This document shows positions 9,016 through 41,574 of a DNA stretch of 64,000 bases, piece by piece (position 1 is the first letter of the stretch; each line of letters begins with the position of its first letter). The DNA is from Polytrichum commune (Eukaryota; Streptophyta; Polytrichopsida; Polytrichales; Polytrichaceae): the NCBI GenBank assembly GCA_950295325.1, contig OX485806.1, positions 39,988,001-40,052,000 of the forward strand, written 5' to 3'. Position numbers and translations under genes: made by a program. A model generated the notes under the pieces. It saw only the letters and a program-made list of their open reading frames with translations. It made no database searches and was not told the origin of the DNA.

Positions 9016-9405
9016 CTACACTATATATTGTATTTAGTGTCGTATGGTATTTTATGTCATCGCTGTAACTTTTCTATCGATTCTAATGGAAAAAGTTTTC
9101 CATGTATTGTCACCCCAACTTACATTTAGTTCATCCAGATGCCAACTATTGGGTATAAAGATTGGTATACCCTATACCCTAACAAATTATGTAACGAAGT
9201 ATTGTCATGGTTGATCAAAATTTGGATGAAAATCCACTTAGTAAAGTGACGGTGTTTTGCAATATTGTAAATCTACAATGTTTACAAGGAATGAGAAATA
9301 ATGTTAGGCTTACATGTAGTGTTAGTCACACTACACAAGGGATTTGCAATTAGTATTGAGTAAGACAAATGGTATTGGTGGCACTAAATACTATATTTAG
9401 TGTAG
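9016..9405. mobile_element. TIR-bounded MITE-like element, copy 2
   Basis: It starts CTACACTATATATTG and ends ATATTTAGTGTAG, so the ends are inverted repeats matching those of the copy at 0.3 kb. Its interior is homologous, in inverted orientation, to the element at 10680-11054; both carry matching segments around 'TTCATCCAAATTT', 'CCATGACAATA' and 'CCATTTGTCTT'. No coding capacity is visible. Confidence 0.6.
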
Positions 9406-10119
9406 CTCTTAGAATGTGTTACATCAAGGATTTTTCAAAAAAATTTAAAAAAGTTTAAAATGTAATTTCTTATTGCTTGCACTTGTCGTAGTTCTAAATG
9501 ATTAATCCAAATAATTATGAGCCTTTCTTTGCAAAGGTTAAACTAAAACCGGGAAAGACACAGTGTGAACCCTGCTCTTTTTTTAATCGTTCTTTTCATA
9601 TTAAGCCGTAGAGTTATGGAACTACTCTATAGAGTTTCTTATGAGTTGCAATATTATTGGTACCAAATTTTCTTTTCTTTTCCTTTCCCGAGACTATTAA
9701 AGATAGAATTCCAAGAGATGAGATGTGAGTAAGTTTTGTTTCAAACGGGGTATGAACATGGTACATGACAACAAAGGGATATTTTTTTGGTTTTCTACAA
9801 AAATATATAGGTCCAAAAATGGATTGTCGTAATATTTTCAACTGCTATCATCCATCCCAATCTAATAATGTTCAATGATTGTGCTTCACCCAAGTTTATT
9901 AAGCTAAATATGGTTAGACAATCATCCATAAGGCATAATTCTAGCAACTTAAATGACATATTCATGGCTCCACCCAACCTGGTCACTTAGTTGAATAAAG
10001 TTATGGTCGGTGGAATATGTATATTCCATAAACTCTAGAGTGCAGAAGTTTTCAAATGCTTGGTGCTCTCTTTCTGGGAGCTTTTCAACAGAACAAACAT
10101 AAGATGCCCATCATGCCTA

Positions 10120-10278
10120 GCATAACATTATTCAGATTCATAACAACGTTCTGTGGGACGGACAGTATTCCACATTATATTTCCCACATTCAGACTGAAT
10201 GTGGGAAATATCTATGAATATTCTAAGGAATATTGTCAGTCCCACATAACATTGTTATGGATCTGAATAATGATATGA
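10120..10278. repeat. Foldback element (159 bp, two ~75-80-bp arms)
   Basis: The left arm (10120-10193) and right arm (10194-10278) are reverse complements over almost their whole length, meeting at CCCACATTCAG/CTGAATGTGGG with almost no loop. Only scattered mismatches and small indels occur. It may be a foldback MITE or an inverted duplication. A transcript would form a long hairpin, so a small-RNA precursor is possible. It lies between two inverted copies of the TIR family. Confidence 0.8.
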
Positions 10279-10679
10279 GAGTGACCTAATGTATATGATG
10301 AAACATCCAAAAAGATTAGAAAATCCATAAAAGGGTCAATGCACTCGGATTCATCAAATTTTGACATTGCACGATTTAGACATGATTTAAGAAAGTCAAG
10401 ATTCCTTTGCAACCCACCCTATTACGTAGGCCCCTTTTTGGTCATAAATATAAGTAGAAATTTGTGCCGTTGACATATTGGAATATCATTCCTAGGGAAG
10501 TGAAGAGTTATTCACAAGGAGAAAAGAACATGGAACTTCTTGTTGTTTGATCTTTGTGAATGTGACACCATTGTAAACATACTATCGTAGATTGAATATG
10601 GGAATCTATATGAATGAGTACTTTCCATATGCATTGTATGTTAATAGATGTAGATAACCTACCTCATAGTGGCAAAGAA

Positions 10680-11054
10680 CTACACTAAATATTGTATATA
10701 GTGTCACCAATTCTATTTGTCTTGCTCAACACTAATTGTAAACTGCCCATGTAGTATCACTCGCACTAAATGTAAATCTAGCATTAAATGTCATCCCTTG
10801 TAGAAGTATTTCGGCATTACAATGTTGTAATTACTGTGACTTACTAAGTGATGTTTCATCCAAATTTCAATCATCCATGACAATATTTTATTACCAAAAA
10901 GTGAGGGTGCGGAATATGCCAAACTTGGTTTCAATAGTTGGTATTTGGGTTGACAATGTTAATGAACTTATTCATAAGAAGTGCCCATTAGAAAAGCTAC
11001 CATAGTGACATAAAATATCAAATTTTGTAGCACTAATTACGATATTTAGTGTGG
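10680..11054. mobile_element. TIR-bounded MITE-like element, copy 3 (inverted relative to copy 2)
   Basis: It starts CTACACTAAATATTG and ends GATATTTAGTGTGG. The interior aligns with the reverse complement of 9016-9405 over nearly full length with moderate divergence, so the two are separate insertions of one family. Non-coding. Confidence 0.6.
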
Positions 11055-13599: not shown

Positions 13600-17496
<3,897 letters not shown>

Positions 17497-17725
17497 GGTG
17501 GCTGGCGGTGGCGGAGAGCAGGGGGGCTGCGGTGGTGCGCCTGCTGCAGCAGCTGCAAGGTGGGCGTCGCAAAAGAGAGAGCCTCTCCGAGAGCCTCTTC
17601 GGTTTTAGGGCTTCGCTCCCACATGCGTTCCTAACGTTCCCCTCAATGAGGACGCCTCGTTCTCCCCCTAGGGGATCTATTAGTAACCCAAATCAAAGAT
17701 GTATTATAAAATATGAGTGGAGACC
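17497..17725 (-). promoter_or_regulatory. RPS23 5' leader and proximal promoter
   Basis: Upstream of the start codon, read on the minus strand, lies a CT-rich tract with GGCTCTCTCTTTTGCGACG around 17565-17585, a plausible pyrimidine-type start region. An AGCCCTAAAACC element (telo-box-like) lies near 17605. An AT-rich TATTTTATAATAC lies near 17700-17715 and could serve as TATA element. The leader part is shared with the NDUFA6 leader at 38.7-38.83 kb. The exact transcription start is inferred. Confidence 0.5.
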
Positions 17726-17769
17726 TTATTGGAGTTGAATCTTGGTTCATGGTTTGTGACACCTACTAA

Positions 17770-18330
17770 GGGCCGGTTTACACCATGGACCATGAAGTCG
17801 GACCATGGAAGATGGTCTTTTTCCATGGTCCAATTTCTTTAAAAAATCAATTTACAAAGTCTTAGGACCCTTCACTAGGTGTAAACCAAATGTGGACCAA
17901 GAGGAATGACCATGCAGCAAAAAGTGAATATGTTTTGTATTTTAATATATGCCTAGAAAGGGTAGTTTTGAAAGAAAAAATATTTTTTTTACTTTATTTA
18001 AAAAAAATCAAAGTTTGACCATTCTTTTGTCTTCATCTTCTCTTCCCCCAAAAAAGTACGTTAAAATCTATTATAACATCATTTCTTTGTCATGGGCCCT
18101 TGCCATTTTCTACTAAAACGCATCTTTTGCCTCTCCCACCGCGAAACCCGTTGGACCATGCCAATGGATATGTAGGCCTTAACATATGTTTTTTGGGGAC
18201 CGAACTCCATTGTCACTCTGACATTTTTTCCTTGGTGTTAACCGAAGTGGTCTCAAAACACGTTCAACATCCAATCACATAATTTACAGGGCATTGGGAT
18301 GACTTCATGGTCCGTGATGTAAACAACCCC
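17770..18330. mobile_element. Tourist-like (PIF/Harbinger) MITE with TAA duplication
   Basis: The left end GGGCCGGTTTACACCATGGA matches the inverted right end GGGGTTGTTTACATCACGGA, and the match continues through ACCATGAAGTC. The element is flanked by TAA at 17767-17769 and 18331-18333. A TWA target duplication and GGG-starting ends are typical of Tourist/PIF-Harbinger elements. It encodes no transposase. Its left end is about 270 bp upstream of the RPS23 start codon, so it may influence that promoter. Confidence 0.75.
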
Positions 18331-18333
18331 TAA

Positions 18334-19066
18334 GGTAGGGCAAGAACGAATTATTGCATAAAAGTGTACCACTCCATCATGTATGCAACACGATAATTTC
18401 TAAACAGTATGTAGTTTGGAGGGTTTGTTTAGTTGATTTGACGCCTTAAGTAGTTATGAAGACCTTGAATTAGTCTAGTTGAAGTAATTTGAGGTAAATC
18501 AACCACAAAGTTCGTAGGATGTTGGGTTTTTATGTTGCATGGGTGACAATTACATTTATATGTGATACTCCCCTCTTGACCTAAGGGAGGCCCTATGATA
18601 AGTTTGTGGTTGATTCATCTCAATTTAAACTCGTTGAACTAATATGAAAGGGTCAAATGATAATAATTGGGTTTTACAATGTCTCCCATCATTTTTACCC
18701 TCCCGCTGGGTAGTTATCAAAAAACTTTACCCAATAGAAAGTTGGAAAGGACGAGGATGAAAAAGTTTGTTATTGTAACTATGCAGTTGGAATAGAGATC
18801 ATTATTATGTGTCTTCACCAAACCATCTAGAATATATTTTTCTTCATAAACCAACTAATATTTTGGGACAAATCGACATATGAGTGTGCAATATTGGTTA
18901 GATCCCTGCACCTAGCATGGCACACGGCTAATTAAATTTTGAAGTCCCATAAATGATCCTAGAAACGGTTTGCATCGTGTTTACTTCTTGAAGTTTGACA
19001 CACAAACCAAACAATATTGGTTGAAATTATGAGTTTCATAACTATGTGTGATAAATGCAATGTTCA
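18334..19066. other. Gene-free spacer between MITE and LINE
   Basis: AT-rich DNA with no recognised gene or repeat. The compositional change near 19067 marks the start of the GC-rich LINE 5' region. Confidence 0.45.
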
Positions 19067-20960: not shown

Positions 20961-21296
20961 ATGCAATTGACTCTCCGCACCAAAACACATTATAGAATAG
21001 AGGCCACAACAACGACACCCGACCACAACATCACAGGTAAGCCTTCTCACTCATACCATCAATTTGTGCTCCGCATTCTAAAAACCATTCTAACTATTTG
21101 CCTTCAATATAATAAGTTAGTACAAAAGTCCACAAACCTCTTTATAACAATGCATATAATGTCTTTAAAATATAATCATACACACATAAGCTTTAATCTC
21201 CTCCAGAAAGCCCGATTGCATGCGCAAAAAGGAGGAGGAGATGTAAGCATTACCTTAAAAACTCACCAACACTTTAGCAAATACCATGTGCAACAG

Positions 21297-22841
21297 ATGG
21301 CAAGTAGAGGCAAGGCCGTGCATGACGCCGTCATGCGGAGCCCCACCGACATCCTTATGGAAGACACGGATGACACAATGGTCTTAGAGGCTAACCCAAC
21401 AAAGAGGACACAAGAAGCAAAGAAGGGGAGCAGTTCAAGCAAACGGAAAAAGAACTCTGAAATTGCAACAGGACTAAAGGATACACCCAAGGAATTTTGG
21501 CTAGGGATTGTAGCCGTGGAGAAGCTTGCTATCGATGAAGGGGTGAGAGCCAAAGACTGCAAACCATCTATGAAAAAAGAAGACCTCATTGGAATGGGCA
21601 TATCGGAATTGGAAGCAGAGGAGATGAGTCAAACAAACAAGATTGCATTCCCACATGTAAGGCAACTCCTCTACCCACTAGAGAGGCCGGATGGTAAAGG
21701 TGGGCAGCATTACAACCTAACCCAATTACCTATTGAAACGGAGGTTGACCCAGGCACGGGACTCTCCTTGGACTATCATGTAGCTATCTACTTTGACAAA
21801 CCCGCAACAGATTATGCACACAATGAGATACTTACCATGGTAACAGCAAGGCTATCTCACATGAAAATTGAATTGGGGATAGGACTAGCGGAACCCATAT
21901 ATATCCCATGCAAGGAAAAGGAGAGAAACAACAAAATAAAATTTTGGACAGGGACCATTAAGATCCATCTTAAGCACCCCAAGGTAGATGGCATTGGAAT
22001 GCTCAAGGGGCTACGCCCCTACATCATGACACTTGACAAAACCCCCACCTTAGGCAAGGTTTGCAAATGCTATGATGCAATAGCTCGAAACACTCTCCTC
22101 TCTACAAAAATTGAAAATCCTAAACTCCACCTCATATCTGCAAGTGAACTCCAGAGGGATGTGCTCATTGAAAGTTTCAGGAGAGGTTATGAGTATGAAA
22201 TAGCTAGTGTACAGAAGGTCAAGGAAGAAACATGGGGTTGGCTCATATCAACCACACCTACCCAGGCAAACCGGATCATTCAGTACCTAGTCCCATACAA
22301 ACAGGAACTTATGCATGTAATAACACCGCAAGCAGCCAAAGCAGAGAGAAGGAGTCGCGGTGAAGGACTTACGGAGGAGGAAATCAAAAAGAAAAATGCC
22401 ACAATGTTATGTCTTTACGGTCTTCACAAAATGAAGAAGGTTGAAGATACAAAAGAATCCATAAAAGCAGTATTAGGAGGATTGAATGTGGCATCCTTTT
22501 ATTTCCCGGGGCAAGTAGGAGATTTACACAAAGGAACGGCCAATGTGCAATGCCTTAACGCCATTGTCTATAGACAATGGGTAGGCAAGACAGTTGAAAT
22601 TTTTGGGAAGCATGTAAACTTTGCCCCGCACCCAAAAAGTTTACAAGGCGCAATACCACCCACCAAGGAGGAGCAAGAGAAACTAGGTTTCTGTGACATA
22701 TCCACGGCAATAGTAGACACACTTGAAGCAACTAGGAATGCACCTCAGACCAAAGGAAAACACAACATGGTTACACACGAGGATTTAGACGCACTAGTGG
22801 AAACCGCTCTGGATAAAAAGACACGGACAACTCAAAATTGA
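21297..22841 (+). CDS. LINE ORF1 protein, RNA-binding type (putative)
   Basis: The frame is open from 20961, but I start at the ATG at 21297 (MASRGKAVHDAV), because the preceding ~112 codons look like leader sequence and an AG splice-acceptor-like site sits directly before this ATG. That gives 514 residues. Near the N-terminus is a basic KKGSSSSKRKK stretch, a likely nuclear or RNA-binding signal. Two later regions show alternating strand/helix patterns like RRM folds, the clearest from 'TMLCLYGLHKMKK' to 'VNFAPHPKS'. The role inferred from position is that of ORF1p, binding LINE RNA into an RNP. Base composition is normal, unlike the G-poor ORF2. The C-terminus is probably cut by a frameshift. 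Confidence 0.7.
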   Translation: MASRGKAVHDAVMRSPTDILMEDTDDTMVLEANPTKRTQEAKKGSSSSKRKKNSEIATGLKDTPKEFWLGIVAVEKLAIDEGVRAKDCKPSMKKEDLIGMGISELEAEEMSQTNKIAFPHVRQLLYPLERPDGKGGQHYNLTQLPIETEVDPGTGLSLDYHVAIYFDKPATDYAHNEILTMVTARLSHMKIELGIGLAEPIYIPCKEKERNNKIKFWTGTIKIHLKHPKVDGIGMLKGLRPYIMTLDKTPTLGKVCKCYDAIARNTLLSTKIENPKLHLISASELQRDVLIESFRRGYEYEIASVQKVKEETWGWLISTTPTQANRIIQYLVPYKQELMHVITPQAAKAERRSRGEGLTEEEIKKKNATMLCLYGLHKMKKVEDTKESIKAVLGGLNVASFYFPGQVGDLHKGTANVQCLNAIVYRQWVGKTVEIFGKHVNFAPHPKSLQGAIPPTKEEQEKLGFCDISTAIVDTLEATRNAPQTKGKHNMVTHEDLDALVETALDKKTRTTQN

Positions 22842-25321: not shown

Positions 25322-26572
25322 ATGCCCAATATCCTCCAAACACACCCATCCACACATAAAAACAGATGCAAAATATACTTCATGGAATGCACCATCAAAT
25401 TACAACCCGAATACCAACACTTAGCAAAACAATTTTCTCCTATAATAAATCTAACACACCCCAAACACCAAGACACAATTACTGCCTACCCATACCTATC
25501 AAGATACATTTATAGAAACCAACACCACCCACCCCCACGCATATTGTACGCACTTATTACCACAATTAGCCCAATAATAGAAACATGTAACCATATATTA
25601 ATACAAACCCCATAACCAGATTGGACAACAATAGTATTAGAACGTATGGCTTCACTCCAAAACCCACCGGAAAGACACATCATAACCATGCACCCATATA
25701 CACAATTCCTCCAAACAAACCAAAACATTATTAACCCACCCACCACCATCCACAAAGAACCATATGATTTCATTAAACAAAGTAATACATCACTAACCAT
25801 ACAAACAATGTCAGACAAATTTCCTTTTTTACCACTACAATTACTTACAGAAGCACTAAAATGCAACGAACCGCTCCACGAATACTCACACCCCCCACCA
25901 CCACCCACCACACCCACCCTATACCCTCAAGAAAATCATACAACAAACTACAACACGCACATAATCACATGGAACGTTTCATCATTAAACACAACTCTAC
26001 CAAACCTCCATCAACTTATATCCCATACACCAAACAAACCAACAATTATTACCATACAAGAAACTAAATTAACGGCAACTAAATTCACGAAATACATTCA
26101 AAATCTATTCCTACAATATAAACTAATATTTAATAATACACACTCACTAACAAGATGCATACAACAAAGAAGGCCATATACACCTGCAAGAGGTGGACTC
26201 CTCACACTCATAAATAAAGAATACGCATACCCATGTAATATCACCAAAATACCTATCCTAGCTATAATATCACCATATCTACAAATAATAAAAATACATA
26301 ACCAACCTCTACAACCCTGGCTAATAATACACATGTATATGCCATCACACGAAGAAGACATAGGATCCATACCGCTAATTAAACAAAACATAACACAACA
26401 AACCATTGACCACCCAAACCATATATACATACTATGCGGAGACTTTAACAGGGACATAACCCTAATTGGAAGACAAAACGACTACACCACAACAAGCAGA
26501 AGACACAGAATGACGCACATTCACAGACCTTCTACAACTTACATACATCCAAACAAACAGCCTATACTCTAG
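24956..26572 (+). pseudogene. LINE ORF2 N-terminal part: 2A-like peptide and APE endonuclease
   Basis: This is one continuous frame broken by a single TAA at 25613. It carries the 2A-like LLSGDIETNPGP, then about 200 residues of unknown function, then an apurinic/apyrimidinic-type endonuclease from about 25950. Visible APE motifs are ITWNVSS (asparagine block), TIQETKL (metal-binding glutamate), a Y/W-containing IIHMYMPS block and LCGDFN (aspartate block). APE nicks the target DNA to prime reverse transcription. 2A motifs cause ribosome skipping between G and P, so the leader would be released from the enzyme; here ATG directly follows the final proline. The frame is lost near 26510. Confidence 0.72.
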
Positions 26573-27600
26573 ACAAGGAGGCCAAAACTACAACCAAACC
26601 AACCTAATAGATGGATATTACATCAAAACACCCAATAACAACCTATACACATCAACCATAAACAATGACCACAACCTCAACTGAGACCACTCCCCAGTAA
26701 CACTACAAATCCCACCAAATACACTACTAACCCGCTGTCCACCACCAACTACAGACAAACCCCCAAGGATCCTAAACCCCATCCCACAGATAAACATCGA
26801 AAAATTCAAAACATAATTCTTTCAAGAAAATGCACCACAGCTAAATGAACTCACGAACACCCTAATACAAGACCAACTAACAAATGAACAATGGCAAACA
26901 ACATGCACAAAATTTGACCATATCATACAAAAAATATCCGACAAAATCTAAGATACATGCAGTGCACCACCTCTCCCAGACCTCACAAACCGTACATCAC
27001 AACAAGGAGGCTTTCTACCAAGAAAACTCCAAAAGAAATGGAAAAACTATCTTTTCACCTACCACCTAATTAGGAAAGCAATTTACCTGATAAAAAACAC
27101 ACCAAATTGGCAAACACACCCCATAATCGAAGAACTAAGGAACCATATCCAAACCCCCATCCCACCCCCCTCCAATCAAGAACCTAATCAGCCTCAATGG
27201 ATAGCAACACTAGCCCAAATTGCCAAAACCGCACATATTCGTGCCCGAAAAATTACCACAAAATACACCCAAGAATGCATTAAAAAAACCATATCCAAAT
27301 ACAGACTACTATACGATAAAAACCCCAAGAAAATCAACAAAAGAGTCTTCACAAACCAAGAAACGCCCCCATTAGACTGCATTACAGACGTAAACAACAA
27401 CATACTTACAAACCCCACAGACATAGCCAATGAAATACACAACCAACAATCTATTAGCAATAGACCCACCGTACCAACATGCTACCACCAACCATAACAC
27501 ATACCAAAGTGCACATGTGGTGTTAGACAATACCCATGGCACGACCTAGACGGATTTGTCATCGAAAAAAGAAAAAACTCTAAAGCTCCACTACATGAAT
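26573..27600 (+). pseudogene. LINE ORF2: APE C-terminus and linker to RT (decayed)
   Basis: After a frameshift the APE continues with NLIDGYYI and ends in the block N-stop-DHSPV, where the D-H pair corresponds to the catalytic histidine block of APE enzymes and a TGA replaces an expected tryptophan. The remaining ~850 bp is a K/N/T/P-rich linker with several stops, leading into the RT fingers. Confidence 0.6.
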
Positions 27601-28806
27601 ACTTTGACAGAGCAACATACGATATGTGTTTGAAGAATCTAGCAAACAACAAAACACCCAGCCCCGACAAAATTCCCAACATAATCTTAAAAAACATGCC
27701 CGAAAGCTTCTACAACATATTTTTCTTATTATTCTCCCACTGTTACAGACGAAAACAAATACCAACTTCATGGAAAATAAGTCTAACAATATTACTATAC
27801 AAAAAAAGACCCATCAAAATTAACAAACCACAGACCAATCGCACTTGCAAACACAATATACAAATTCTTTACGAGCTCCCTTACATCCATACTATCAGCA
27901 TATGGAGAAAAATACCAAATCCTCCACGACAACCAAGAAGGATTCAAAGCAGAAAGAAACACATCCAAACAACTCCAACTCCTCATAGCAGCACTAGAAG
28001 ACGCAAGATTTACAAACCAAAATATCTATCTACTATATATCGATTTAAAAAATGCATTCGGATCTCTTGATCACGCACGACTATTAGCAGTAACTAATGA
28101 CTTAGGATATCCAGAAGATATCGTGTCTTTGATAGGAAATATTTATTCAAATTCCAATACCATATTTACAGGAGAACACTTCGGAAAAACAAAACTCATA
28201 CCAATACAAAGAGGCACAATACAAGGTGACACACTTAGTCCATACCTCTTCCTAAGATTCTTAGAACCACTACTACGTTGGCTACAACGAAGGAATAATG
28301 GGTACACATTCGGTACATCCAAACTAACAATCAGCTCTGCAATATACGCAGATGATATAGCAACCATCACAAACAATCTTCAATCAATACAAACCCAATT
28401 ACACAAACTAAACAAATACTGCGAATGGGCCGGAATGGACCTGGGAGTTCCAAAATGCGCCATCATGGGATGCCCAAACAAATCAAAAATAAAACCTGAA
28501 ATATTCAAAACCAAAATCCAAGCCCAAAACATCCACTACAGAAACCAACCACTACCCGTCCTACACCAAAATGAACCATACGTATATTTAGGCATACAAT
28601 TAGTACCATCATTAAAATGGAAACTCCAAACACACATCACCACAACCAAAATGATAAACCAATGCAAACTACTACCAAACTGCCCAGCTACAATCAAACA
28701 AAAAACAAGTATGGTAGACACTGTCATGAGAGCCGGTATACCATATAGCTTTTATGCAGTCCCATACTCAATGCCAGCTATCAAAAAATTAGACAAAAAA
28801 TTATAG
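27601..28806 (+). pseudogene. LINE ORF2: reverse transcriptase domain
   Basis: RT motifs in order: NNKTPSPDKIPN (block 0/1), the palm A block YIDLKNAFGS (catalytic aspartate), IQRGTIQGDTLSPYLF (block B), and YADD (block C) at about 28345-28356. WAGMDLGVPKCAIMG (block D/E) follows. The stretch 27820-28075 is in another frame, so at least two indels disrupt it. Catalytic residues are retained. The protein would make the LINE cDNA at the nicked target. Block spacing fits non-LTR RTs. Confidence 0.88.
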
Positions 28807-30031
28807 GAATCCAAAAAGTAATATGTGGTCTACCTAAATGTACAGCAAACATAATAACCCAATTACCACACGACTTGTTTGGACTAGAAGAATTCTCATT
28901 AAAAAATGCCTACCTAAGATGTATTAGCGAACAACTCATAAATGCACTTAATGATCCTGACAGACTTGGCATAATCTACAAAGGACTTATACAACATATC
29001 CTTGCAAAATATGGAGGTGCAGAAGACATACAAAGAATCAAATACCACGACTGCACAAGCTCACCTACAACACGAACACTATTTCTTATGAAAAAAGAAG
29101 GAGAAGCTCACCTCAAAAACATAGAAACAAATTTCCAGCTCCATGCAACTGAACTTGAAACAGAATGTAAATTCCAGGCCACAGTCGTACTACCACAACT
29201 AAACAAAGAACTATCTCTTAAACTACTATATAAACTTCTAACACTAAACATACAAAAAATAAAACACATTTCCCTTCCCAATGGCACACACTTAATGTCA
29301 CCAACAAACTTTCAAACCTACTATAAAACCCCGACAAAACTAATAAAAGCGCACTACACATAGCAGAACAATTTTTCTGCCAACAAAGTTGTAAGCAAAA
29401 CTGTCCAATCCAATGTAATAGACACTCACAAGCCCGCACACTCCAAGAAAAATACATATAAGATAATAAAGAATTACTACCCAGAATCTTGGACAACCCT
29501 TTACACTCGCCACCAACACAACAACCCCAACAACCAAACCCACCCCCCAATATAACAAATAACCCAATCAAATTCCCCATATACAACATACTAAACCACA
29601 AAGCAAACATAACGAAAGACAAATATAAAATAACAAAAAAAATTAACACATACATATGCCAATGGTCACTCCAAAACAACGTAACATACTACAAGTGGAT
29701 GCCACAAAAATAACTATTTCCACCAAACCATCCCTCAGTAATCGAACACAACATAAACCTACTAAAAGAATATTATACAAGATAATAACACAACCACTAC
29801 AACAAACTAATTCATACCCATATAACCCCCATACAAACCAAAGACCCAAGATTCATAACACCACCTACAATAACACCACACACCCAAATATCAATAATAG
29901 AATGCAACCCAGAAAGAGACATTAATACAACGAAACATACTATACAAACACAAAACGAAATAACACACATATACGAAGACACAGGGAGATATCTCATAAC
30001 CATCCCAACCACCAGACTAAATTGGCTATGA
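28807..30031 (+). pseudogene. LINE ORF2: RT thumb/connection region
   Basis: A sizeable frame at 28875-29363 (162 residues, helix-rich, LEEFSLKNAYLRC) follows the RT. After it come broken short frames through about 29900. The frame then continues as the one carrying the methyltransferase-like and RNase H regions, with a TGA at 30029-30031 after LNWL. No known domain is recognised in this connector. Confidence 0.5.
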
Positions 30032-30760
30032 CAACAATACAACAAAGACACCTACAGGACATACGGCCTAATACCACCCCCACAACCATTCGAAACTGAG
30101 GTAGTCTGGCTATATCAAAGATATAACTCTAAAATATCAAAAAAATATCCACTTAAAACATCTCCATACACTCTCCCACAGAACCTCCTTGACTCCATTA
30201 CAAAAGCATTTAACATTTCACACTCATACTTCTCTTCACCAATAATATGCTCTACACATATTACAAAACATTTCTCATCATTCACAAGAGATAAAAATTT
30301 TGGATCATTAGGCACCGCTTTCCAATACAAATGGAACGGAATTGGCTATGCCCACCCACAAAACGAATAAATGACTCAACAAGCAATACACTGGGCACGC
30401 CTAGCAGCTAGAAATGACCCAGACACCGTCACACTAATAGTCACACCAGACACAAATTGGTACCAAAACTACTCACCACATACAAGACCGTTCCCAGACA
30501 CACATGTCCTAGCCCATTTCACCGCAGATACCATTATATACGACGTACCAACAAACCCTCAAAACCACAATAAACCACAAATAGAACCATTAGCAATACA
30601 TATACTCTGTATCCACCACCAACACAATAATTTTGGCACTCCCAACCAAATAGACACAATCAAAACAACAATAGAAAACATACAAATAGCACAATACCAT
30701 ATACAAACAACCCCACCCGTAAACAATAACACTAAATGGAACAAACTACTCTACCCACCA
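30032..30760 (+). pseudogene. LINE ORF2: region resembling phage-type adenine methyltransferases (putative)
   Basis: In one frame, broken only by TAA at 30368, I see YTLPQNLLDSITKAF, then SHSYFSSPI, then FGSLGTAF, WNGIGYAHPQ, then about 35 residues later VTLIVTPDTNWY, then THVLAHFTADTIIY and IHILCIHH. This order resembles phage Dam-like N6-adenine methyltransferases: TPQxLFDxL, a W-x-G-x-x-x-NPP[YF] catalytic block, a LLPxxTDTxWF strand, a FIxGRLxF strand and a final hydrophobic strand. The catalytic NPP is AHPQ here, so this copy would be inactive. Matching segments (LPPSIIHNL) occur in the LINE at 58.9-59.1 kb, so the region belongs to the family. It is inferred by eye. Confidence 0.45.
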
Positions 30761-31348
30761 CATAATAACCCATCAATTACACCCATACCACCAATACCAA
30801 ACTACGAAACCCAACACACATTAAAATTCCTACCACAATATAGCTATTACACCGACGGTTCGTTTATTCCACCCATGAAAGCTAATGACAGGTACTGGAA
30901 GAAAGAAAAAGCTGGATATGGTATTTATAACCCACCGAAAATAGACATACGTATATCAAAAAGATTGTCCGGCCTACAAACCAGCTTTAGAGCCGAATTA
31001 ATGGTCATACACAAAATCCTCAAAATAATCACAACCAAATACCCGAACGAACCTGCACACATATTTACAGACTGTCTAAACTGCCTATATGTAATCAACA
31101 CACAAATAAAACATCCAACTCATCATAATAACCATGCTGACAAAATCATACTGACATCTATGGTTAAAATGTTAAAAAACCGAACACAACCCACTACGAT
31201 ATATAAAGTAAAAACACATATAAACATTGACAAAAATGAACAAGCTGACCAACTTGCAAAGCAAGGCACTAAAAAACAATATAGATTTCTTGCCAAAACA
31301 TATGAATTTGCACATACCACACCATACTACTTCCAAAAAGACACATGA
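30761..31348 (+). pseudogene. LINE ORF2: RNase H domain
   Basis: This is a type I RNase H with all four acidic residues in order: YYTDGSF (Asp), FRAELM (Glu), IFTDCLN (Asp) and NEQADQLA (Asp), plus the preceding KVKTH histidine. It would remove the RNA strand from the RNA-DNA hybrid during target-primed reverse transcription. It is in the same frame as the preceding methyltransferase-like region and ends at a TGA at 31346-31348. The domain itself looks intact. Confidence 0.9.
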
Positions 31349-31810: not shown

Positions 31811-31896
<86 letters not shown>

Positions 31897-31899
31897 TTT
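31811..31899. repeat. (TA)n microsatellite at LINE 3' end
   Basis: About 80 bp of TA dinucleotides followed by a short T-run. It interrupts the LINE 3' end directly after GCAGGGACAT, a point at which the second copy of this 3' end (in the palindrome) continues with TTAACAACAATCC. Confidence 0.95.
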
Positions 31900-32907
31900 G
31901 TTACTTTTATGAGCTTGAAGATAGTATATAAAGATTTTTGACTTGTTGAAATTATATTATTTCAGTTGGTGTGGGAGTTCTCTAATACATAGGAGGTCAG
32001 GTTTGAGTCTAGCGTTACAGTGACATCTTTGTTGTGCACATGTACATGTTAGTAGCCATGTTGGGACTGTATTTTCTTGTGGATTGTTGTTAAATGTCCT
32101 TGCATTCATGAGGGTGTAGCATCTTGAATTTTGTGATGATAGGATTAGTTTTCTTAATTCTCATATTGCTTTGTTATGTCTTTTGGTTCTGAGGGCGTGT
32201 ATGTGGTTATATTTTTACACATATATTATTTGTACACCCTACTTGAAGATTAATACATTTTTAATTACTAAAAACCGCTATTTTTGTTTGAATATGTTTT
32301 ACCTCTGAGTATGTTTTTTGCAAAAACCGCTATTTATGTACAAATGTTTTACCTCTGAGTATGATTTTTGCAAAAACCGCTATTTGTAAAAAACATACTC
32401 AGAGGTAAAACGTTTGTACATAAATAACGGTTTTTGCAAAAAACATACTCAGAGGTAAAATGTTTTTATATAAATAGCGGTTTTTGCAAAAAACATACTC
32501 AGAGGTAAAACATATTCAAACAAAAATAACGGTTTTTAATAATTAAAAAAGTATTAATCTTCAAGTAGGGTGTACAAATAATATATGTGTAAAAATATAA
32601 CCACATACACGCCTTCAGAACCAAAAGACATAACAAAGCAGTATGAGAATTAAGAAAACTAATCCTATCATCACAAAATTCAAGATGCTACACCCTCATG
32701 AATGCAGGGACATTTAACAACAATCCATAAGAAAATACAATCCCAACATGGTTACTAACATGTACATGTGCACAACAAAGATGCTACTGTAACGCTAGAC
32801 TCAAACTTGACCTCCTATGTATTAGAGAACTCCCACACCAACTGAAATAATATAATTTCTACAAGTCAAAAGTCTTTATATATTATTTTTAAGCTCATAA
32901 AAGTAAC
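31900..32907. repeat. ~1-kb near-perfect palindrome containing LINE 3'-end sequence
   Basis: The left arm starts GTTACTTTTATGAGCTT and the right arm ends AAGCTCATAAAAGTAAC. The two arms are reverse complements for about 480 bp with only scattered mismatches. The centre (about 32270-32525) consists of ~50-bp repeats built from AAAAACCGCTATTT, TTTTACCTCTGAGTATG and TTTTTTGC, with one extra unit on the right, so the loop is about 35 nt. Each arm contains about 100 bp homologous to the LINE 3' end at 31705-31812. Transcription would give a long double-stranded hairpin RNA. Confidence 0.92.
31945..32035 (+). mobile_element. tRNA-like SINE head within palindrome arm (and its inverted twin near 32770-32860)
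   Basis: On the plus strand of the left arm, CAGTTGGTGTGGGAG, then CTAATACATAGGAGGTC, then GGTTTGAGTCTAGC follow the order and spacing of a tRNA D-arm (A box), anticodon arm and T-arm (B box). No proper acceptor stem is visible, so it is not a functional tRNA gene. A tRNA-derived SINE fused to or overlapping the LINE 3' end is likely; in the LINE's sense it is antisense. Confidence 0.45.
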
Positions 32908-32931
32908 TATATATATATATATATATATAAT
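32908..32931. repeat. (TA)n microsatellite bounding the palindrome
   Basis: A short TA run directly after the right arm mirrors the longer one before the left arm. TA tracts at both ends of a palindrome are frequent break and rearrangement points. Confidence 0.9.
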
Positions 32932-36879: not shown

Positions 36880-37435
36880 TCAGTAGTTGCCTCTGTAGAA
36901 AGTCTTCAGAAAGTCGGACTCTCCATGGAATGTCTCTCCAAGCTTGTGAACGTCCCCGGTAAGACCGTCCCTTCCAATAATATATTGTGAGAGAAGATGG
37001 TGCCGCTGCTTCGAATGGTCAATGCAATACTGCAGCTCCTCTTGCCCCTTGAATACCAACATATCGATGACCTGCAAATGCCAATCCCTACTCTCATAAA
37101 TAAACAAGCAGAATGAAGGGTAAGGAGAAGAAAGAAAACAAGATCCCTACGCAATGACATTCATTTGCACAAGCATCATTTTCCTCGGAAATTGGCATGA
37201 TTCACACCTTGGGATTGGTATTGTGTGCGTGTTTCCGGAATTCCGTGGCAATTTTGCGGCGGAGCTCCGACAAGGTGATGACTTCATACAGGTTGTAGCG
37301 GTCCATGATGGACGGCAGCGCCCGGCATGCTTCCCTGAAGAAATCGGTTGCTCGGTGGTGTGCTTCCTCCAGCGACTTGGAGCCACTGCCTGTCTTGGTG
37401 ACACGCAGGTTCTTAATGAGCGCAGCTGCCGCCAT
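36880..37435 (-). CDS. NDUFA6: NADH dehydrogenase (ubiquinone) 1 alpha subcomplex subunit 6 (B14, LYR family), two coding exons
   Basis: This is an accessory subunit of mitochondrial complex I. B14 is an LYR-motif protein that, in the known enzyme, binds the mitochondrial acyl carrier protein on the matrix arm. Coding exons are 37435-37208 and 37071-36880, joined across a GT-AG intron of 136 bp to give 139 residues, close to the plant family length. Family landmarks are SLEEAHHRATDFFREACRALP, HAHNTNPKVIDMLVFKGQEE, KQRHHLLSQYI and a C-terminal SDFLKTFYRG. The coding exons are intact. A non-coding first exon and a 1.25-kb leader intron precede the ATG (separate entries). The leader resembles that of RPS23, suggesting housekeeping expression. 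Confidence 0.9.
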
Positions 37436-37448
37436 GGCTGCCCTCCCT

Positions 37449-38699
37449 CTGTGATGTTATGCAAAAATTCTTTTAAGATTGCCAGCACTTGCTCAGTCTT
37501 AAAACAAGTATTTGTCTAGAAAATCTCCCAAGAGAACATCCTCAATATCAACAAAAAGCGGCCCAATAGGATGCTAGATGACCTCTATTTGGGTCGCTCT
37601 TGTGACTCTACTCCCTAAGACAACTATTTAAACCATGGCAGCAATCTGCTACAGAAAGTCTGAAACCCTAATTTGATAAGCTCCACCTACATCTTTGCAG
37701 AGCACTGCACAAGGGACAGAATTGTAGGCGAGTGCAGGGTGATTTTTGTCCAATGGTCATGATCTACAAATTTTACTTACTGCCTTGCACCTCGATCCTT
37801 AATAAGAGTGAAATGCAGATTGTCCTAGAAGTCGTCACTCATCAGAACTTCCCTCATGTTCAGCCTTCCACTTCTGGCTGTACACTGGTAGTATGAATTC
37901 CATGTATACCGGGACGAATTTCCACATAATAGAGCCAGAGTGCATGATGATGTATCAATGAATCGAAATTCAAAAACTTGCATCAACCGCAAAATTTACA
38001 GCAACAATTGACAATTAACGAAAGATATAGATTTCACTGGATTTAGCCACAGAACAGGAACAGCGGCATAAAACCATCAATCAGCTAACAAAATGACCTA
38101 AGGAAAATGGCCGGTATCTGATGCACAACACAAAACCCTAAACCAAAGCATCATCCGGTGGTATCGAAGACTTGATAGCTTTGTGTTGTGCCTCGTCTTG
38201 TCGCAAAAGGAATGTAAAATGGCTCTCCAAAGCCACCAACCTTTAACAGACCCTGACAATGAAACCCTCAAACCCTAAGTCTCCATAAATGATCCAAAGA
38301 TGATCAAGATAATGTTGGCTAAGGTGCTACACATATTAAAGAGTTGTTAGAATTGTGTTGTGCCTCCTTTGGAGGCAAAGTAAAGTGTGGAATGGCTCTC
38401 AAAAGCCACCACCGGTATCAACCCGTATGCCTCCACAAATGGATCACTAGATGGTGCGGCAATGTTGAGCAAATTTGGTGCACATAGTAAAGAATTATAA
38501 GCTTTGCGCTGTACCTCCCTCCTTTTGTGGCAAGGGAAGTGTGAGATTGCTCTCCAAAGCCACCAATGGTATCAAACCCTAAGCCTCCACAAATGCATCA
38601 AAAAATGGTGCGGCGATGTTAAACAAATCCGGTACAAATGTTGAAGATTTGTGAGGTTTGCATAGCACGATTTGAGGGTGAGAGGAAAGCGTAACTTAC
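37449..38699 (-). other. NDUFA6 leader intron, homologous to RPS23 intron 1
   Basis: The inferred donor is CCAG|GTAAGT (exon end 38700) and the acceptor ATCACAG (AG at 37450-37449), 13 bases before the ATG. From about 37459 to the donor, the intron aligns with RPS23 intron 1 from about 15313. Shared blocks include TGACCTCTATTT, GCACTGCACAAGGGACAGAA, AGCTCCACCTACA and CCACTTCTGG. The part at 38108-38665 has about four of the same ~165-bp telo-box repeats. No coding sequence is visible inside. Confidence 0.8.
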
Positions 38700-38830
38700 C
38701 TGGCGGTAGCGGGGGCGGAGAGAAAGGGCTTGCGATGGTGCGCCTGCTGCAGCAACTGCAAAGTTGGGCGTCGCAAAGCGAGAGAGCCAAAACATAAAAT
38801 GGTCACGGGCGTCGCCAAAGAGAGAGCACT
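38700..38830 (-). promoter_or_regulatory. NDUFA6 non-coding leader exon and proximal promoter (RPS23-derived)
   Basis: On the minus strand the block GCAGCAGGCGCACCATCGCA and the CT-rich GGCTCTCTCGCTTTGCGACG match the RPS23 leader. Where RPS23 reads CCGCCAGCCACCATGGGGTACGC, this copy reads CCGCCAG directly followed by GTAAGTTACGC. The RPS23 start codon is thus missing and the donor is consensus. The GGGCGTCGC(C)AAAGAGAGAGC motif occurs twice (about 38767-38789 and 38807-38828, plus strand). Confidence 0.7.
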
Positions 38831-41574
38831 TTCATGTCGCAATCTCCAACGTGGGATTCAACATTAAACACAACTTGGTAGTGCAACACTTACAAACATG
38901 AATACATCATCCTCATCCAAACATGGCAATTACATTCATTATTTCTCAATAAAATTGTCCAAATGATGACTTTGGCATACATAGCATTTCTCAACACTAG
39001 GATGTTGCACCGTGGGGCCGGGAATTTTGAGACCTTATTGCTCTTTGATGTTGGGGTTGGCTTGCAAAATGAACAATACTCAGCCTGAGTATTGTTCATT
39101 CTGACACATTAAACCAACATTTGATATAAGGTAGAGGTTGCTAAAACCAGGCACTCTACTACTATTCATATCCACATTGTTCAACCATGGCCTACGGTTT
39201 TTGAGGTTCGTGATGGAGGAGTATGATAAGAGGTGAACCTCTTTATTCCAAATGACCATTGTTAGTATTATGTTTATCCGATCAATTACGTCCATATATG
39301 GAAACGCAAAACACGAGGTATCACCTTGCAATTCTTATTATTGTAAAAGTTGCATATCTCCTATGGAAATTAACACAATGATCAAACGTACAACTATGAT
39401 TTATTATGGATATTTTAAACACTTATAGTGTAATACATAATATATATATTGCAAATATTATATTATTGCGGCACAAAAATGTGTGGCCAACCAACCAATA
39501 CTAAATTTCCACCTAAAACGATTTCAACTATTTATGTGAGTTGATGGCAGTAGTTGGTGTTATTGGTGACATTTACATTTGTTAAATCTAGTTTAGGTGT
39601 TGAAAATAAATTTTTATGATAAATATATGACCATATTTATAATTGCCAAGTTGTAATAGATAGAAAAAAATATTAAATATGCTTCTAGATATGTCCAATT
39701 TAATTTATGTTGTTAGAATGCTACACATGTCTGTTATTTATCAACTTGCTTTGGTAGATGACCTCTTCAACGTTTCCTTGAAAACAAATGTTTTTTCCCT
39801 CATCTAACAAGCAACCTTCATTAACTATTATTATCATGGTTAATGATTTCTCATCATAATCATTATCGTTTCAAAACATGTATTGTCATTGTAAAGACGG
39901 CGGATATGCACATGTCAAGAATGTTTCTCCTACAATCGCATATTCAATTTCAGAGGATCTTTTGGACCATGGTTAGCACCTGTCATGGAAATATTGGACC
40001 GTCGCCTACATAGGATGTCCAATCATCAAATATAAAAAATGTTACGGTTGAAAGAAAAAAGATCATGATTGAAGATAGGTACAAAACAATACTTGTATAT
40101 AGTGAGAATGTCTAACCTCCACAAGGATATTGCTTAATTAGTTTGAACCCTTTAATTTATTGTATTCCGATTCATGTGGTTGTTAGTCATATACATGTCC
40201 TTTGTATATCACCAATTCTTCTTAAATTTATGCCCCCCTATGAGTTAATATGTATGGACAATTGTGTATTGTAATTTGTTGTCGTTGGATGGTTGTGAAG
40301 CGACTCCAAGGTAATTATTAGGCACATATCACATTGTTTGTAGCCAAGAACGACAAAATCAATATTTTGCACACCCAATGGCGGGATGCCTTGGGACTAA
40401 CCAGACATATAGCAACCAATACCAACAAGTGAAAGAAGAACTTCAAATTCTAAATTAGTGCACCATGGGTGACAATTTCCAAGGTAACATGTTGAGGTCA
40501 ACTTTAACCCTCGGTCTTAGACAATGTAACGTGTTGCTGATTGGTTACATGGACATCATTACTATCAAAATTAGACTTCTCACAATTTCAAACTTTTGAA
40601 GGTGGACATACGCATGTTATCATTGGAGTTTAGATTCATGTTGGTAATCTTGAGGTGGTGTATCCTCTTCAAGGTATACTTTATAATCTTCTAAGCTTCC
40701 ACTATTGTATTTTATAAGCTTATCTTCTCCAAAATTCTTAGTAATAATGTCCCATGATTATAGAATGAACTAGAATTATAATTATTTAATTATCTCTACA
40801 TGTAATGTGAAGGTTAAGCAATTCCTCATTTTATTATTAGGTATGTTCAAAACAATATATTAGAATCCACGTGGGTTAATGTTCAAAGATCACAAGATTA
40901 TGTTCTTCTAAATTCTAATGTCATGGTTAAGTGTCCTTACAATGTTAGGTATTTGTGAACCATCCAAATGATCCACAAGCCATGATAAAACAATTACTGT
41001 GGTATTCGGTGATTTTTCTATACTCCTAATATTTAGTCTATGTGTTTTGTCAAGTTTGACTTATCAGAGTATTTTAGTACAATATTTAGTAGTCACTTAG
41101 ATGTTTCAACATGAGTTTGAATGTTCGCGTGAATTGCGTTAGTCAATGAATTTTTGATGGTCATTTTTGGTTTTTTGCATATTTTTGTGTGGTTTGGGTT
41201 TTACAATTCGAGATGTTATGTGGTTATACTCAACGATGATTAGAGTGGCAAATTAATAAGTGGTAGAAATTAGGGCACTTTTAGACTTTGGAGTAGATCT
41301 AGAATAGACCTAGAGTTATCTGAGGTTTGAGTTAGGATCACACAAACTAGAGGAGAGAGTTGGATGAATGTGTTTGGCACATAAAGTTGTGGATGGATGA
41401 AGTTGTGTGGAGAGGATTCAAATCCTTTATAATGTTGCTTTTTGGCAAGGTTTGGTAGTTGGTAGGAGGGCAAAGCCTTGGGCTTATGGGGAGTGTGTGA
41501 GAAGGTAGAGTTAGGCAATTTTATGATTAGATTAGGTTTTGAAGATTAAGGAAGTGAGATTTGCTAAGGGTGTG
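38831..41574. other. Gene-free AT-rich stretch with one strong hairpin
   Basis: At 39068-39100 AATGAACAATACTCAG and its exact reverse complement flank a single base. Weaker pairing continues outward on both sides (for example ATGTTGG/CCAACAT), so about 38.9-39.3 kb may be an old foldback element. The rest is featureless. Confidence 0.5.

Follow-up and report, generated by a model that had tools for sequence, protein, structure and literature searches.

Apparent capture of the leader and first intron of RPS23 by the complex I gene NDUFA6 in Polytrichum commune

In this study, we found that a collinear copy of the leader and part of the first intron of the ribosomal-protein gene RPS23 lies directly before the coding sequence of NDUFA6, a complex I gene of Polytrichum commune. 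Leader-intron capture by partial duplication is well supported by the comparison of the two 5' ends, which traces the putative joint NDUFA6 transcription unit to two different ancestral genes. We give a probability of about 0.7 to the whole account, in which the RPS23 segment was duplicated, was recruited as NDUFA6 leader and leader intron, and would now act on transcription. The locus is a readable case, with the donor, the junctions, the erased start codon and the kept telo-boxes all visible, so that regulation gained by copying a neighbor's leader intron becomes a testable idea. It illustrates a physical route by which a gene for a mitochondrial protein may acquire ribosomal-gene control sequences.

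The duplicated segment and its limits

The window, meaning the whole stretch of 64,000 nt of P. commune DNA analyzed here, lies on contig C4, and whole-genome searches covered the 408-Mb genome. RPS23 and NDUFA6 are both on the minus strand, and all exon limits were read off the genomic sequence. The features are as follows.

17492-17585, minus strand: RPS23 exon 1 (donor copy); its leader is non-coding and has the start codon (ATGGG) at its end, and its start of transcription is presumed
14911-17491, minus strand: RPS23 intron 1 of 2,581 bp; it contains six TTAGGGTTT telo-boxes and, at 17021-17440, a ~149-bp tandem array
15313-17585, minus strand: donor segment, consisting of the RPS23 leader and part of intron 1; both of its ends recur in the NDUFA6 copy, which has gaps in between
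13600-14910, minus strand: RPS23 coding exons 2-4, intact (14755-14910, 14283-14409, 13600-13740)
38700-38790, minus strand: NDUFA6 exon 1, the putative captured leader, without start codon, ending CCAG
37449-38699, minus strand: putative NDUFA6 leader intron, 1,251 bp, RPS23-derived down to 37462, with donor GTAAGT and acceptor CACAG at the new junction
36880-37448, minus strand: NDUFA6 exons 2 and 3 (37208-37448, with the ATG at 37435, and 36880-37071)
38791-38835, minus strand: a diverged second copy (38803-38830) of the captured leader's initial ~23 nt, immediately upstream in NDUFA6, read from the sequence
17765-18340: a short, high-copy, MITE-like repeat upstream of RPS23, ~270 bp from the start codon and outside the copied segment (4,041 candidates at first look, best 40 scored)
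38979-39126: a short dispersed repeat upstream of NDUFA6, outside the copied segment

The RPS23 protein matched Pfam S12/S23 (E 3e-48), and three intact RPS23 genes were found in the genome, namely the window gene and the paralogues L001 and L002. NDUFA6 was identified as the complex I LYR subunit B14 by its best solved-structure match, to a B14/NDUFA6 chain (E 5e-37), and by Pfam Complex1_LYR (E 6e-7), and its two best complex I matches are presumably plant entries. One copy of NDUFA6, with one intron in its coding part, was found in the 408-Mb genome. NDUFA6 is presumably a long-standing nuclear gene.

Self-BLAST placed window positions 17585-15313 (RPS23) collinear with 38790-37462 (NDUFA6) in the same orientation. 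The direct matches were 15313-15430/37462-37590 (69% identity), 15593-16083/37631-38098 (68%, E 3e-39), 16759-17285/38121-38646 (77%, E 5e-106, the best) and 17062-17583/38268-38788 (74%, E 3e-76), the last in a different register of the tandem units. These collinear blocks of 68-77% bear out the alignment of the NDUFA6 leader and intron with the RPS23 leader and intron 1 on which the sequence-only reading was built, and the duplication within 20 kb that it proposed is clear, the two segments being 19.9 kb apart. A gap-tolerant global alignment gave 80.2% identity over 1,273 ungapped columns and a K2P distance of 0.23, but being gap-tolerant it likely overstates identity, and beside the 68-77% of the BLAST blocks the K2P value may be too low. 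In the same alignment, the leader was 85% identical over 89 columns and the intron 80% over 1,184 columns. The NDUFA6 copy is ~0.9 kb shorter than the donor segment, and the missing parts include about one ~149-bp tandem unit. Since non-tandem stretches also align (for example, 15593-16083/37631-38098), the telomere-like tandem array at 17021-17440 is not the explanation of the homology.

Part of RPS23 was duplicated without the whole gene, as judged from homology confined to 15313-17585 and from the finding of no exon 2-4 match near NDUFA6. At its 3' end the copy stops 13 bp short of the NDUFA6 exon. Self-BLAST gave no match in the window for the final 402 bp of the RPS23 intron (15312-14911), which include its acceptor, and comparison of this intron end with the NDUFA6 side of the junction gave nothing above shuffles (180/200 as high). 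The NDUFA6 acceptor therefore sits at the junction and is not that of RPS23. At the other end, the stretches upstream of the two leaders showed no similarity (195/200 shuffles as high; 186/200 with short repeats left out), which speaks against a copied promoter. Similarity thus stops at the 5' end of the leader, indicating that leader and intron were copied and the region upstream was not, unless it was lost later. A relative of the repeat at 17765-18340 also occurs upstream of the paralogue L002 (L002:1-540).

From these limits, the proposed event would have duplicated RPS23 from the start of its leader to ~2.2 kb into intron 1, in the same orientation, directly before the NDUFA6 coding sequence, probably at the DNA level.

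Direction and relative age

Copying from RPS23 to NDUFA6 is highly probable in view of the match of the RPS23 leader to a paralogue, the start codon at the exon 1/intron 1 boundary that the RPS23 genes share, and the sharp break of the copied sequence where the NDUFA6 5' exon begins. Direction was judged from RPS23 paralogues within one genome. Against L001, the upstream and leader region of the window RPS23 scored 41, a value reached by 0/500 shuffles, whereas the NDUFA6 leader scored 21, which 335/500 shuffles reached. Among 2,126 overlapping window segments (240 bases, both strands) compared with L001, the RPS23 leader ranked first and the NDUFA6 leader 718th. The contrast was weak against L002, where the RPS23 leader ranked 8 and the NDUFA6 leader 70, with unrelated segments on top (shuffles as high: 14/500 and 125/500, respectively). 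The sequence ATGGG was read before intron 1, in the same codon phase, in all three RPS23 genes, and the 139 residues searched in exons 2-4 are identical across them.

The reverse event, in which the NDUFA6 leader and intron were copied onto RPS23, replacing its own leader, and the RPS23 start codon arose later at the old exon boundary, is unlikely. It draws some support from the window RPS23 intron 1, for which no similarity to an intron of L001 or L002 was detected, while the leaders of these two paralogues resemble each other (score 99, 0/500 shuffles); the window RPS23 may thus itself have gained its leader intron. However, the reverse event requires ATGGG to have arisen precisely where the other RPS23 genes have their exon boundary, in the same phase and flanked on either side by copied sequence, and it does not account for an RPS23 upstream and leader region that still matches L001 when the NDUFA6 region does not.

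Synonymous distances were 0.72 and 0.80 between the window RPS23 and its paralogues, and 0.53 between L001 and L002. As the K2P distance of the copy is well below 0.72 and 0.80, duplication of the RPS23 segment into NDUFA6 probably postdates the divergence of the RPS23 paralogues, provided that non-coding and synonymous rates are similar and that the alignment is not too flattering, the latter point weakening the comparison.

Start codon, splice sites and the putative NDUFA6 leader

The junctions read CCACCATGGG/GTACGC in RPS23 and CCGCCAG/GTAAGT in NDUFA6, and the NDUFA6 acceptor reads CATCACAG/AGGGAGGGCAGCC-ATG. Four scoring schemes were applied to this region; each yielded 70 to 210 co-optimal alignments, and a single one per scheme was printed. 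Every printed alignment matches the two donor GTs and puts the start codon in a 3-nt gap (TGG), with a 1-nt gap a few bases upstream. An earlier claim that the segment holding the RPS23 start codon is missing from the copy, leaving the consensus junction CCAG/GTAAGT, thus holds as to the absent start codon and the junction, but the change is best aligned as small gaps and not as a 10-nt excision. Given the many co-optimal alignments, the 10-nt loss is an alternative notation for the same change.

At the homologous position, the donor site agrees with the consensus at 5/9 positions in RPS23 (GGG/GTACGC) and at 9/9 in NDUFA6 (CAG/GTAAGT). The spliced NDUFA6 leader holds no upstream ATG, and a retained intron would bring in 19 (20 counting the NDUFA6 start). 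If the RPS23 start codon had been kept and spliced to the NDUFA6 acceptor, it would add an in-frame extension of six residues, MGGRAA, so loss of the start codon was not needed to save the frame. From the 9/9 donor, the leader without upstream ATG and the 19 upstream ATGs of a retained intron, we infer with good reason that the captured copy now serves as the spliced leader of NDUFA6, and splicing of the leader intron is likely. In the proposed sequence of events, the copied donor splice site would have stayed in place and turned into a perfect consensus, with the adjacent RPS23 start codon erased, while a CAG at the insertion junction would have become the acceptor. NDUFA6 would thereby have obtained its non-coding first exon from the ribosomal leader exon and its leader intron from the telo-box-rich ribosomal intron.

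It is improbable that the captured stretch is bystander or upstream DNA, with NDUFA6 transcription starting downstream of 37462. The copy ends 13 bp from the NDUFA6 exon, and the region upstream of the RPS23 leader is missing from the copy, both of which a bystander would accommodate. Against it stand the perfect donor at the homologous position, the missing start codon and the ATG-free spliced leader, as well as a leader identity (85%, 89 columns) at least as high as that of the intron (80%).

Copy number, telo-boxes and regulation

A dispersed repeat or transposon sitting independently at both places was rejected as hardly credible: although the intron carries the ~149-bp tandem array with telomere-like motifs and dispersed short repeats do occur upstream of both genes, queries from the segment found two loci only, while the same genome search detects many copies of those upstream repeats. 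Three queries together covering the segment each found only these two loci in 408 Mb, with two first-look candidates each, in a search that scores the best candidates only, skips very common words and masks some stretches. A 23-position pattern of the tandem unit, allowing ≤2 mismatches, had seven matches genome-wide, four of them in these two loci and three outside with two mismatches each; the reversed control had three. The generic dispersed repeat that the sequence-only reading had named as a finding that would refute its proposal was thus looked for genome-wide, and with only two matching places in these searches the segment is no dispersed repeat.

Partial 5' copies derive from two of the three RPS23 genes. 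Long parts of the L002 leader intron occur at three further places, with short matches of 63-78 bases at five more, and the L001 leader and intron had no other copy at E 0.01. The three places are as follows.

L003, C1:49314500-49323500 (49.32 Mb): L002-derived leader, intron 1 and exon 2
L004, C2:23944500-23953500: parts of L002 intron 1 and exon 2 with a stop codon; leader absent
L005, C2:21206000-21214900: parts of L002 intron 1 and exon 2 with a stop codon; leader absent

The L003 copy corresponds to L002 from ~190 bp before the start codon, across exon 2, to ~24 nt of intron 2; CACCATGGGGTACG is retained, and the intron carries an insertion. RPS23 exons 3 and 4 were not found there in 9 kb. 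L004 and L005 are 96% identical over 4.3 kb and both share 1.4 kb at 76% with L003, so the three may trace to one event. No known gene was recognized by eye behind L003-L005 in their ORF lists, and among the copies seen only that of NDUFA6 precedes a recognized gene. That RPS23 5' ends act as portable regulatory cassettes, one of which was kept because its intronic telo-boxes tie a complex I gene to the ribosomal growth program, is a speculative and rather doubtful extension.

The NDUFA6 intron has four TTAGGGTTT telo-boxes, at 38582, 38278, 38141 and 37671, a number reached by 0/1,000 dinucleotide shuffles, which ignore the tandem units. Telo-box repeats had been claimed for the aligned region, and boxes indeed occur in both introns, with the donor boxes in copied stretches kept. 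All three of the latter are retained, two in gap-free columns and one beside a 1-nt insertion; for comparison, 113 of the 836 gap-free 9-mers of the intron alignment are fully kept. The copy lacks the stretches that hold the remaining three RPS23 telo-boxes; the fourth NDUFA6 box aligns with TTAGGAGTT in RPS23. This retention of 3/3 is suggestive only, being a small, after-the-fact count of boxes that lie partly in tandem units.

Upstream of NDUFA6, no telo-box was found in 1.36 kb, and a search of 38836-40200 in both orientations gave no site II element (TGGGCY), although the intron has one at 37565. The absence of these motifs from the 1.36 kb would fit a disturbed upstream region, or a lineage with other promoters. 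The Arabidopsis-defined intron-enhancement motif TTNGATYTG occurred in neither intron, and the GATC motif downstream of the start, tried as a candidate, was not enriched (150/1,000 shuffles as high for the first 600 nt of NDUFA6; 196/1,000 for RPS23), which together speak against a simple enhancer story. An intron-hosted structured RNA was likewise rejected as the reason for conservation, since at gathering level the window had no hit to Rfam; permissive scans gave one far-below-threshold match on the other strand for the NDUFA6 stretch (E 0.6) and none for the RPS23 stretch.

The earlier interpretation, a duplicated ribosomal-protein leader in front of a mitochondrial gene that could co-regulate ribosome and respiration genes, can be followed as far as a clear duplication with RPS23 favored as the source. 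Co-regulation through the copied leader is only a hypothesis, since the region upstream of the RPS23 leader was not copied, the 1.36 kb before NDUFA6 hold no site II element and TTNGATYTG is absent from both introns. By analogy with the leader introns of highly expressed plant genes, the first intron and leader, not a copied promoter, would most likely influence the place and strength of NDUFA6 transcription. The leader intron of soybean eEF1A is reportedly an example of a start-proximal intron that boosts or places transcription. According to the portion of the source used here, transcription can be driven and positioned by start-proximal introns even after deletion of the promoter (PMC6374622). 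Like the expression-boosting introns in that portion, the putative NDUFA6 first intron lies in a leader that ordinarily belongs to a strongly expressed housekeeping gene, here ~90 nt behind the presumed start, but its enhancer effect is putative and the Arabidopsis motif is absent (PMC6374622). Telo-boxes in Arabidopsis occur more often in introns 1 and 2 and become sparser across the first 1,000 nt, in the excerpt of PMC3022908. For GATC, the passages drawn from PMC11525189 give a modest effect with weak support in Marchantia, whereas in Physcomitrium none was clear.

The kind of event, partial gene duplication, is already known. In the part of PMC3449122 considered, chimeric genes arise when a duplicated gene fragment forms a new exon-intron structure at a new place, as here; in NDUFA6, by contrast, only a non-coding leader and intron are apparently used, the recipient is a conserved gene found once, and the donor start codon is gone. 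Organelle genes acquiring presequences or exons of resident nuclear genes are represented by sdh3 in Cupressaceae and Cephalotaxaceae, in the extract from PMC8317393, and reportedly by rps10 in Arabidopsis. As at the present locus, a mitochondrial-protein gene there gains 5' parts of another nuclear gene, but the extract deals with genes that had recently been transferred to the nucleus and with presequences that are coding, whereas the gain of NDUFA6 is non-coding (PMC8317393). Telo-boxes and site II elements are common to plant cytosolic-ribosome and mitochondrial genes, and for mitochondrial ribosomal-protein genes a biased insertion near telo-boxes or telo-box genes was not significantly different from that of plastid ribosomal genes, in the sections of PMC3212954 cited here. 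Those sections resemble our case in that a mitochondrial-protein gene carries telo-boxes of ribosomal type; they count promoter motifs in ribosomal-protein genes, whereas here the donor is visible, the boxes are intronic and the gene encodes a complex I subunit (PMC3212954). Among the literature matches listed, which set the scope of this statement, there was no precedent for a ribosomal-protein leader intron in a complex I gene.

Other elements of the window were also recorded. Pieces of a LINE-like element, with endonuclease, reverse transcriptase and RNase H reading frames, lie at 25646-31348 between the two genes, beside a 626-codon open reading frame at 20961-22841 without Pfam match. A palindrome of ~1.06 kb at 31871-32929, 92% self-complementary and overlapping an (AT)41 run, is perhaps a fold-back element, and inverted arms of ~275 bp (74%) around a 157-bp palindrome at 9135-10948 perhaps represent a fold-back transposon.
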